A stretch of 64,000 nt of DNA, from the NCBI RefSeq assembly GCF_000585495.1, contig NZ_CP007264.1:1736001-1800000 (forward strand), read 5' to 3'. Shown piece by piece: positions 8,220-11,081 of this stretch. How positions within the stretch are numbered: the first letter of the stretch is position 1; every line of letters begins with the position of its first letter. The translations under genes were made by a program, and so were the position numbers. The DNA comes from Thermococcus nautili (GTDB lineage: Archaea > Methanobacteriota_B > Thermococci > Thermococcales > Thermococcaceae). The notes beneath the pieces are model-generated. The model had not been told where the DNA came from, made no database searches, and saw nothing but the letters and a program-made list of their open reading frames with translations.

Positions 8220-8954
8220 CTAACGGAGGAGGACGTCCCTCATCAGCTCGACGGCCATTTCGGGGCTCAACGCCCTCGCCCGCGTCTCCCTCAGAATCCT
8301 CTGGATGGCCAAACGCTTGGTCGAAGGCGCCCTCCTAAACAGCTCCCAGAGAAGGGGACAGCCGAAGCTCAGCCTGTAAGGCCCGATTATCTCGATAATC
8401 TCTCCCTTGTCGAGGGCGAGAAAGGCGGGAAAGTTAAGGATAACGATGCCGTTCTTTTCGTAAATCGAAATCAAACCTGAACTCAGCATGTCGCCCGTCG
8501 CAAGGATTCTCACGCCAAGCTCCCTCGCCTTCCGCTCAACCGCTTCCATGACCATTGAGTGACAGCGGCCGCAGATTGGTGCCCCTTTCTCAATCAGCTC
8601 CCGCATCGTCTCCTCGTAACCCGGCACCTCGACGAGTACTGCGTTCTCGGAACGAACCTTTTGGAGGGTTTTTTCGCCCATCTGGGGCAGTTTCGCGGTT
8701 ACTGGAACGACGTCAAAGCCTGCCCAGCGGAGGATTTTCAGCGTTGCCGTGCTGTCGGAGCCAGCGGAGAAGGCCACAGCGACCTTGGCATCAGTGGGAG
8801 TCCTTTCGAAGTCTCTTCCTTCGAGGCGGAAGAGGACGAGCTCCCTCAGCCTGGAATACGCGCTCTCGCCTATCGCTTCCCTCACGCGCTCGAGGGCTTC
8901 AAGGTTGTAGCAGAGGCGGTAGCGCTTGACAGGGTCTTGGGTGGGGGTGAGCAT
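8220..8954 (-). CDS. PP-loop superfamily ATPase
   Basis: A 244-residue adenylating enzyme of the PP-loop (AANH) class. The pyrophosphate-binding loop FSAGSDST is at 62-69. A CxxC pair (Cys128, Cys131) and a later Cys199 resemble the cysteines of tRNA-thiolating and sulfur-transferring members such as TtcA/NcsA, but no full THUMP or rhodanese domain is present. It belongs to an archaeal group annotated only as predicted ATPase. It is translationally coupled to the upstream nuclease: the TAA of that gene (8955-8957) touches its ATG, and the GAGGAGGT ribosome binding site lies within the upstream coding sequence. A joint role of the two in modification and recognition of nucleic acid is inferred. 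Confidence 0.78.
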   Translation of the reverse strand: MLTPTQDPVKRYRLCYNLEALERVREAIGESAYSRLRELVLFRLEGRDFERTPTDAKVAVAFSAGSDSTATLKILRWAGFDVVPVTAKLPQMGEKTLQKVRSENAVLVEVPGYEETMRELIEKGAPICGRCHSMVMEAVERKARELGVRILATGDMLSSGLISIYEKNGIVILNFPAFLALDKGEIIEIIGPYRLSFGCPLLWELFRRAPSTKRLAIQRILRETRARALSPEMAVELMRDVLLR

Positions 8955-9905
8955 TTAAACCTCCTCCAGCCGTATTTTCCCGAGCAGTTCTTCGTAGGTG
9001 TAAGTTGCTTCTCTCGTGATATTCCCAAACCCGTAACTCCAGAATTTGATATCGGGCTCTTCCTCGATGTTCTTCTTGAAGGATTTGACAATCAGCACTC
9101 CCCCCACAGTCTCGGGGCCGCTTTCCTTTATGTACGCCTTCAGCTGTTTCAAGTCTTCTTTTCCGGCGCTTCCGAGCTTTACTTCCACAAGAATCCTCGG
9201 AGCCCTGCCGAGGGGGTGTTTGGGCTTTATCAGGAGGTCCACATGCCCGGAGGGGAGAGCCTTTTCGCCGAGAACCTCAAAATCCTCCGGGTTCCCGTCT
9301 ATTTTAAACGTCTCCAAAAGCCCATCCAGAAAATTCCGCTCAATGGCCTTTCGAAGGAGGGACTGGAGGAGGACTTCCCTCATCGGGAAAACCCTCGGTG
9401 GGTCTATGAGTTCCCGTGAAAAGGTGATTTTTGGCATGAACGCTTTCCATTTTGAGGTTTCATGTTGAAATTCTTCGCTCACTGGGATTCCCATTCCCGA
9501 AACGTTGTAGAGTGTTACCTCATCGGCCTGGAAATGAGTCTTTCTATACCCTCCTCTCAACAGAAGGTTTTCAGCTACGTAAGAAAACTCCGGTCTTATC
9601 ATTGACTCGGAAAGCTCACGGAGGGGCGTCAGCAGGAGCCTGAAGGGGAAAGAATACACCCTCCCAGAGGGCAGTTTTATCGGCTCCCAGGGGCCGACTT
9701 CGTCGGGGTTCTCAATTGCGACTTTCTTTTTCACGCGATAGAGGTTGTAAACCTTCGCTCCGTGCAGGAACGAGACGTAGTCCCCAACATCAATATCGAC
9801 AAAGGCCCAGTACCCGTTTACGCTACTTGTGAACCCTGCAACGTTCATCTGAGTGCATTTTTCAAGGTTCTCCATCGTCGCGACCGAGATGAGGAAGTAT
9901 GACAT
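8955..9905 (-). CDS. EVE/PUA-like domain fused to PD-(D/E)XK nuclease
   Basis: A 316-residue protein (ATG 9905 behind GGTGAGAGG; an earlier in-frame codon at 9956 lacks a ribosome binding site). Residues 1-95 (SYFLISVAT, NGYWAFVDIDVGDYVSFLH, YNLYRVKKKV) look like an EVE/YTH-type PUA-superfamily domain, which binds modified bases. Residues 205-290 carry a PD-(D/E)XK core: Asp223 in SGHVDLLI, then Glu241-Val-Lys243 in RILVEVKLG, followed by a QLKAY helix. This arrangement is that of modification-dependent (type IV-like) endonucleases. The downstream gene is a coupled PP-loop ATPase. DNA or RNA specificity is unknown. TATA-like CTTTTAAGG lies near 9965. Confidence 0.68.
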   Translation of the reverse strand: MSYFLISVATMENLEKCTQMNVAGFTSSVNGYWAFVDIDVGDYVSFLHGAKVYNLYRVKKKVAIENPDEVGPWEPIKLPSGRVYSFPFRLLLTPLRELSESMIRPEFSYVAENLLLRGGYRKTHFQADEVTLYNVSGMGIPVSEEFQHETSKWKAFMPKITFSRELIDPPRVFPMREVLLQSLLRKAIERNFLDGLLETFKIDGNPEDFEVLGEKALPSGHVDLLIKPKHPLGRAPRILVEVKLGSAGKEDLKQLKAYIKESGPETVGGVLIVKSFKKNIEEEPDIKFWSYGFGNITREATYTYEELLGKIRLEEV

Positions 9906-9963
9906 CCTCTCACCAAACATGAAGGCGAGGGTATTGGTTAAAACTTTCACGTTCACGGGAAAA

Positions 9964-10025: not shown

Positions 10026-11081
10026 ATGAGGGAGATAGTTGAGAGGGTTAAGGCCAGAACGAGCATCCCCGTTTACGAGAGGACGATAGAGAACGTCCTT
10101 TCGGCGATTCAGGCCAGCAGTGACGTGTGGCGCATCGTGGACCTCAGCGAGGAACCGCTCCCGCTCGTCGTGGCGGTTCTTGAGGCGCTCCACGAGCTCG
10201 GCCACATAGCCTTTGACGGCCCGAACGTCATTCTCACCGAGAGCGGTAAACAGCTTGTCGAGAAGTACGGAATCGGGCCGAGGAGGGACTACACCTGCTC
10301 CCACTGCGAGGGCAAGACCGTCGAGCTTTCAGCGTTCAGCGACCTGCTCGAGCAGTTCAAGGAGATAGTCAAGGACAGGCCCCAGCCGAAGCACGACTTC
10401 GACCAGGCCTACGTCACCCCGGAGACGACCGTCGCGAGAGTCGCTCTGATGCACAGCAGGGGTGACCTTGAGAACAAGGAGGTCTTTGTTCTGGGCGACG
10501 ACGACCTCACGAGCGTTGCTCTGATGCTCTCGGGCCTCCCCAAGAGGATAGCGGTCCTCGACATTGACGAGAGGCTCATGAAGTTCATCGAGAAGACTGC
10601 TGACGAGCTCGGCTATTCCGACATCGAAATATTCACCTTCGACCTTCGCGAGCCACTTCCCGACTACGCGCTCCACAAGTTCGACACCTTCATCACCGAC
10701 CCGCCCGAAACCGTTGACGCAATAAGGGCCTTCGTCGGAAGGGGAATCGCGACCCTCAAGGGCCCCGGTTGCGCCGGCTACTTCGGCATAACGAGGCGCG
10801 AGAGCTCCCTCGACAAGTGGCGCGAGATTCAGCGCTTGCTCCTCAACGAGTTCAACGTCGTCATAACTGACATCATCAGGAACTTCAACGAGTACGTCAA
10901 CTGGGGCTACGAGGAGGAAACGCGCGCCTGGAAGCTCCTCCCCGTCAAGGTCAAGCCGTCCTACAACTGGTACAAGAGCTACATGTTCAGGATTCAGACC
11001 CTTGAGGGCTCGAAGGGCTTCGAGGAGAGGATTACCGTCGGCGACGAGCTCTACAACGACGAAGAGGCTTCTACAACCTGA
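10026..11081 (+). CDS. bpsA: N4-bis(aminopropyl)spermidine synthase (branched-chain polyamine synthase)
   Basis: A 351-residue aminopropyltransferase. It adds two aminopropyl groups from decarboxylated S-adenosylmethionine to spermidine to make the quaternary branched polyamine needed for growth at the highest temperatures. Signature elements are GDDD at 157-160, the VLDID strand end at 177-181 for nucleotide binding, and DPPE at 225-228. A short N-terminal winged-helix-like region ends in a CSHC zinc pair (Cys91, Cys94). The sequence matches the Thermococcus BpsA family over its full length. The flexible acidic C-terminus (DELYNDEEAS) is also typical. The ribosome binding site is GGAGGGAT. 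Confidence 0.95.
   Translation: MREIVERVKARTSIPVYERTIENVLSAIQASSDVWRIVDLSEEPLPLVVAVLEALHELGHIAFDGPNVILTESGKQLVEKYGIGPRRDYTCSHCEGKTVELSAFSDLLEQFKEIVKDRPQPKHDFDQAYVTPETTVARVALMHSRGDLENKEVFVLGDDDLTSVALMLSGLPKRIAVLDIDERLMKFIEKTADELGYSDIEIFTFDLREPLPDYALHKFDTFITDPPETVDAIRAFVGRGIATLKGPGCAGYFGITRRESSLDKWREIQRLLLNEFNVVITDIIRNFNEYVNWGYEEETRAWKLLPVKVKPSYNWYKSYMFRIQTLEGSKGFEERITVGDELYNDEEASTT

Follow-up and report, generated by a model that had tools for sequence, protein, structure and literature searches.

The window, by which we mean the whole stretch of 64,000 nucleotides of Thermococcus nautili DNA that was analysed, contains on its reverse strand an open frame that runs from an ATG at 9905 to a TAA and encodes a protein of 316 aa. 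Its neighbours in the window are the bpsA, PP-loop and SufT-like genes. The features of this locus are as follows.

8955..9905, (-) strand: coding sequence, 316 aa, EVE/YTH-like domain plus NucS-like PD-(D/E)XK nuclease (ORF, conservation, dN/dS, predicted structure)
9465..9905, (-) strand: predicted EVE/YTH-like domain (PUA superfamily), residues 1-147 (AlphaFold and VIA)
9831..9839, (-) strand: codons of Ala23-Gly24-Phe25; A23 and G24 invariant, A23 putatively at the position of the Trp in the EVE motif 'NVWGV' (conservation, hhalign register)
8958..9398, (-) strand: predicted PD-(D/E)XK nuclease domain, NucS/EndoMS-like, residues about 170-316 (Pfam NucS_C, Foldseek EndoMS/NucS)
9237..9239, (-) strand: codon of Asp223, invariant catalytic-type residue (conservation)
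9183..9185, (-) strand: codon of Glu241, invariant, EVK motif (conservation)
9177..9179, (-) strand: codon of Lys243, invariant, EVK motif (conservation)
9937..9946, (-) strand: putative TATA-like element AGTTTTAACC, upstream of the ATG (read by eye)
8220..8954, (-) strand: PP-loop ATPase gene, a core neighbour outside the system, in 89/94 Thermococcaceae; its ATG abuts the nuclease stop (TAAATG)
10026..11081, (+) strand: bpsA, a neighbour outside the system, about 100 bp from the PP-loop gene where the nuclease is absent

An alternative start for this gene, a GTG at 9956 that lies 17 codons upstream of the ATG, is placed by the ORF listing. The N-termini of the related proteins have the form M-x-Y-F-(L/F), which matches a start at the ATG at 9905, and directly 5' of this ATG is the stretch GGTGAGAGG, which resembles a ribosome-binding site. 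The relatives, from Thermococcus and other archaea, show 46-97% identity to the window protein. Pairwise comparisons among the window gene and its two nearest relatives (G022 and G062) gave dN/dS values of 0.10-0.16, and the protein is therefore under purifying selection. The nuclease gene has a G+C content of 50.5%, compared with 58.5% in each of its two neighbours and 56% in the window. On the basis of the open frame, the homologues and the purifying selection, it is confirmed that 8955-9905 is a real gene, above chance, as had been proposed in a preliminary description made from the DNA.

In the C-terminal part of the protein, the residues D223, E241 and K243 (in the context G-H-V-D ... V-E-V-K) show no variation in any of the 14 Thermococcus or the 19 archaeal sequences compared, and Q254 is nearly invariant; the numbering of this core in the preliminary description was exact. 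The Pfam domain NucS_C matches 13 of the 14 Thermococcus members (best E 2e-5), the window protein itself being similar over residues 213-281 with E 0.008, and PDDEXK_9 and NA-iREase1 are further Pfam matches of members of this family. Sequence searches of the PDB yielded NucS at E 0.37 and otherwise chance-like matches. When the predicted model was compared with known structures by Foldseek, EndoMS/NucS (2vld, 5gke), MspJI and AspBHI were among the best matches. An intact PD-(D/E)XK core, and with it a predicted nuclease, is confirmed for the C-terminus by the Pfam matches, the invariant residues and these structural matches.

The N-terminal part was modelled in two AlphaFold runs. In the first, based upon an alignment of 14 Thermococcus sequences, much of this region was below pLDDT 50. 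The second, based upon a 19-sequence alignment that included distant archaeal relatives (46-50% identity) from profile searches, gave a mean pLDDT of 93.5 and a pTM of 0.90, the N-terminus being resolved because these distant relatives had been added. In comparisons by VIA-align, residues 1-138 aligned with the EVE protein MJECL36 (2p5d; Z 14.2, rmsd 2.4, 127 aligned), residues 1-140 with the EVE protein PH1033 (Z 13.5), residues 1-148 with YTHDC1 (Z about 11-12; 11.9) and residues 1-143 with the EVE domain of VcaM4I (Z 10.6 over 135). By these Z scores the EVE fold is therefore the closest and YTH the second, and YTHDC1 is the most numerous among the structural matches of the domain. At the sequence level, none of 17 N-terminal sequences matched the Pfam EVE family (PF01878) at E values up to 10, although a true EVE protein does match it. 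In hhalign, the N-terminal profile aligned with standalone archaeal EVE proteins with P 0.04, and six of 200 column-shuffled controls scored higher; P was 0.0078 once one extra EVE sequence was included. In the alignment so obtained, which we judged sensible, the NL that follows the N-terminal strand is paired with NW, GD with GD and FPFRL with YPLRV. While sequence methods alone fail to show an EVE domain, it is clear in the predicted structure, where a PUA-superfamily (EVE/YTH) fold is confirmed for residues 1-147. The AlphaFold-type modelling that the preliminary description had recommended thus upholds the EVE/YTH pattern which it had read in the N-terminus, but this domain extends from residue 1 to about 147 rather than over residues 1-95.

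According to the account of VcaM4I (PMC7897488), the EVE domain of this enzyme flips the modified cytosine into a pocket made of P24, W82 and Y130, with contacts by T11, E15 and the carbonyl of W22. The counterparts of P24, W82 and Y130 in the window protein are uncertain. In the register of the hhalign alignment, F25 would be near the counterpart of P24, and W73 and Y120, which like W33 are invariant in the 19 archaeal sequences, may form the other walls of the pocket. With A23, in this register, in place of the EVE Trp, the pocket looks altered relative to the canonical one. In YTH readers an Asn contacts the adenine, and N13 may be at the place of this residue. The family also shares the near-invariant motif AENLLxRGGYxKTHFQAD. 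It is possible, if rather doubtful, that its members read a modification for which no EVE/YTH restriction enzyme has yet been identified; they would then be restriction enzymes of new base specificity, directed at archaeal viruses whose DNA contains unusual bases.

Six genomes that do not contain the nuclease at this site (G043, G032, G019, G065, G057 and G024) have a gap of about 100 bp between bpsA and the PP-loop gene, and the nuclease cassette takes the PP-loop side of this gap, as far as the conserved CGGGAAAACCTTAAAAG block before bpsA. The empty sites carry the TATA-like box of the PP-loop gene, TTTAAAAG, which the insertion of the nuclease displaced. In view of this displacement and of the TAAATG junction, the core PP-loop gene in the window may now depend upon the nuclease promoter for its expression. 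A functional link between the two genes was considered and rejected; the PP-loop gene, given its presence in 89/94 genomes, is a core neighbour and not a partner, whereas the nuclease is an insertion. Neither McrBC nor a methyltransferase adjoins the nuclease in the window, in agreement with its earlier placement as a single chain outside an McrBC set, and no C5-methyltransferase match was obtained in the whole genome G000.

The nuclease gene is present in 18 of 94 Thermococcaceae genomes, and all of its carriers belong to one of six genera, viz. Thermococcus. At least three of the copies are broken (G048, G059 and G015), and those in G025 and G049 appear truncated or frameshifted. In other archaea its occurrence is sparse (5/28 genomes in the phylum of G127, 4/23 in the class of G253 and 2/34 in the phylum of G126). 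Two unrelated insertion sites are occupied within Thermococcus, and in the phylogenetic tree the two Thermococcus groups were strongly separated (support 100/99 and 100/100), with no order of these groups fixed among the other archaea. The two sites, the patchiness and the decay fit a history of horizontal gain and frequent loss. No relatives were found in viral contigs and phages, and a search of plasmids gave a single, chance-level match. The nuclease was not recognised by PADLOC, and its PHROGs matches were at chance level only. The architecture, the patchy distribution and the decay together suggest that the protein cuts modified foreign DNA, and we consider it likely that it is a single-chain, NTP-independent modification-dependent (type IV-like) DNA endonuclease.

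Across the loci most neighbours are housekeeping genes, with no defence island, and some relatives are found in defence surroundings. An Mrr-type nuclease adjoins the copy in G389, and the relative in G426 (L089:4218-7716) is near a C5-cytosine methyltransferase (PF00145; about 1.4 kb) and an HhH-GPD glycosylase; this locus may combine restriction-modification with a mismatch-repair glycosylase. Heavy base damage is a feature of life in hyperthermophiles, and this glycosylase, together with NucS/EndoMS being closest to the nuclease domain by sequence, could indicate that the protein is a DNA repair nuclease, whose pocket would read a damaged (deaminated or oxidised) base and whose NucS-like domain would cut next to that base in the way that EndoMS/NucS cuts at mismatches. 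We regard such a role as unlikely, since a gene limited to 18/94 Thermococcaceae and often broken is unlike a core repair enzyme, and the catalytic half, NucS_C, is the sole part in common with NucS.

Some other loci of this family and of EVE genes are recorded here. In G235 (L076:1782-11260) the nuclease gene is interrupted at a point following residue 196 or so, by an insertion or through an assembly artefact, and the interrupting island encodes DISARM-like DrmA, DrmB and DrmE and a BrxP-like protein. The broken copy in G059 is adjoined by the gene of a standalone EVE protein in divergent orientation (L038:8453-8890; PF01878, E 2e-22). Standalone EVE genes were also observed no more than a few kb from matches to N6/N4-type methyltransferases (G015:C1 about 1398106-1399682; G020:C1 about 1629247-1632732; G051:C28 2007-5960; G068:C46 147182-152918). 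These loci are perhaps the COG1743-DUF499-helicase operons that are described in PMC7641849.

The second Thermococcus group, which we will refer to as clade B, is found at the other insertion site, near a P-loop gene and the tRNA-modification gene TYW3, and its copy in G039 adjoins an integrase. The presence of TYW3 is of interest for an RNase whose substrate would be modified tRNA, rRNA or mRNA, and in which the EVE/YTH-like domain would be a reader of RNA modification; YTH domains recognise m6A in RNA, and YTHDC1 is by number the commonest structural match. However, PD-(D/E)XK and NucS-like domains are mainly DNases, and TYW3 is near only one of the insertion sites and not at that of the window, so that an RNase appears improbable to us.

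In clade B, a gene of 78-95 aa overlaps the stop codon of the nuclease by an ATGA-type junction (MRKRLFMFVTPDG...; examples L026:8923-9210, L024:9033-9290, L027:6759-7046, L032:9701-9955, and others). Among 201 genomes it was found in nine, exclusively beside the nuclease, and a Pfam search with it gave no meaningful match. This small gene is a possible inhibitor or accessory factor, and its overlap and exclusive association would fit a selfish or mobile cassette whose toxin-like nuclease is restrained in clade B by the smaller protein. The small gene is, however, absent from clade A, to which the window belongs, and from the other archaeal relatives, and in G024 and G063 it is broken next to intact nucleases; we therefore hold a toxin-like nuclease to be very unlikely. 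For this clade B gene, a suspected relationship to a small gene of L071 was not supported.

A modification-dependent DNA endonuclease of the kind favoured above can be compared with several known systems. MspJI and AspBHI combine an N-terminal PUA-superfamily reader with a C-terminal PD-(D/E)XK nuclease, which is the layout of the window protein (Foldseek E 5e-5 to 1e-3, with a whole-chain TM of only 0.13-0.19), but their reader is of the SRA type. NucS/EndoMS has in common with it a C-terminal PD-(D/E)XK catalytic domain (NucS_C), whereas the N-terminal half of NucS was not found in the window protein, which has the EVE-like domain instead. The McrB of Thermococcus gammatolerans (YTH-McrB, a 6mA reader) is from the same genus and likewise has a PUA-superfamily reader, but it works with a GTPase and the separate nuclease McrC, neither of which is at the window locus. 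A worked example of the mechanism is provided by the EVE-HNH enzyme VcaM4I, a modification-dependent endonuclease (PMC7897488), which resembles the window protein in its N-terminal EVE fold, C-terminal nuclease, lack of an adjacent methyltransferase and patchy distribution, and differs from it in having HNH rather than PD-(D/E)XK as its nuclease. Membership in the Pfam EVE family by sequence, a full NucS, an EVE-HNH enzyme and McrBC were each ruled out (no PF01878 match; NucS_C only; PD-(D/E)XK; no adjacent McrB/McrC).

Bell, Wolf and Koonin in 2020 (PMC7641849) presented diverse putative type IV enzymes that have the EVE-PD(D/E)XK architecture, together with archaeal homologues of the YTH domain of T. 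gammatolerans fused to PD(D/E)XK nucleases, and it is with these that the correspondence is closest. This EVE/YTH-like-PD(D/E)XK class shows the same fusion of reader and nuclease in one chain, and in it, as in the window family, the EVE domains are divergent in sequence and visible to sensitive methods only. The portion of that paper available to us gives the class and not the window family by name; the family fits this class predicted in 2020, and the window nuclease is apparently an undescribed, well-conserved member of it.

Both halves of the architecture put forward in the preliminary description, viz. a reader of EVE/YTH type joined in one chain to a PD-(D/E)XK core, are supported by the predicted structure, the NucS_C similarity and the invariant residues, and the function that it proposed is plausible. 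In the mechanism that we propose, a modified base would be flipped from the helix into the pocket of the EVE/YTH-like domain, and the NucS-like PD-(D/E)XK domain, probably in dimeric form, would make a metal-dependent cut in the DNA close by; DNA as the substrate, base flipping, dimerisation and defence are the parts that we infer. The targets would be viruses or plasmids whose DNA is modified, and the nuclease would be tolerated only as long as the DNA of the host does not carry the mark. Strong N6/N4-type methyltransferases are encoded by two of the carriers, G063 and G039, and together with the methyltransferase in G426 they speak against broad recognition of 6mA, 4mC or 5mC in those hosts. 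An enzyme that recognised 6mA or 5mC broadly would be harmful to them unless sequence context matters. No C5-methyltransferase above the cut-off was found in any Thermococcaceae carrier of the nuclease, which says little because only 2/61 Thermococcus genomes have one.

The EVE/YTH-PD-(D/E)XK architecture has been predicted in numbers, and neither an assayed enzyme nor a biochemical or structural study of it was found in the literature searched, most subscription journals being outside this search. The window protein, a compact and presumably thermostable single chain, is a candidate modification-dependent restriction enzyme. If active, it could be a tool for detecting modified bases, and its activity would be a sign that viruses or plasmids of hyperthermophilic archaea carry modified DNA.
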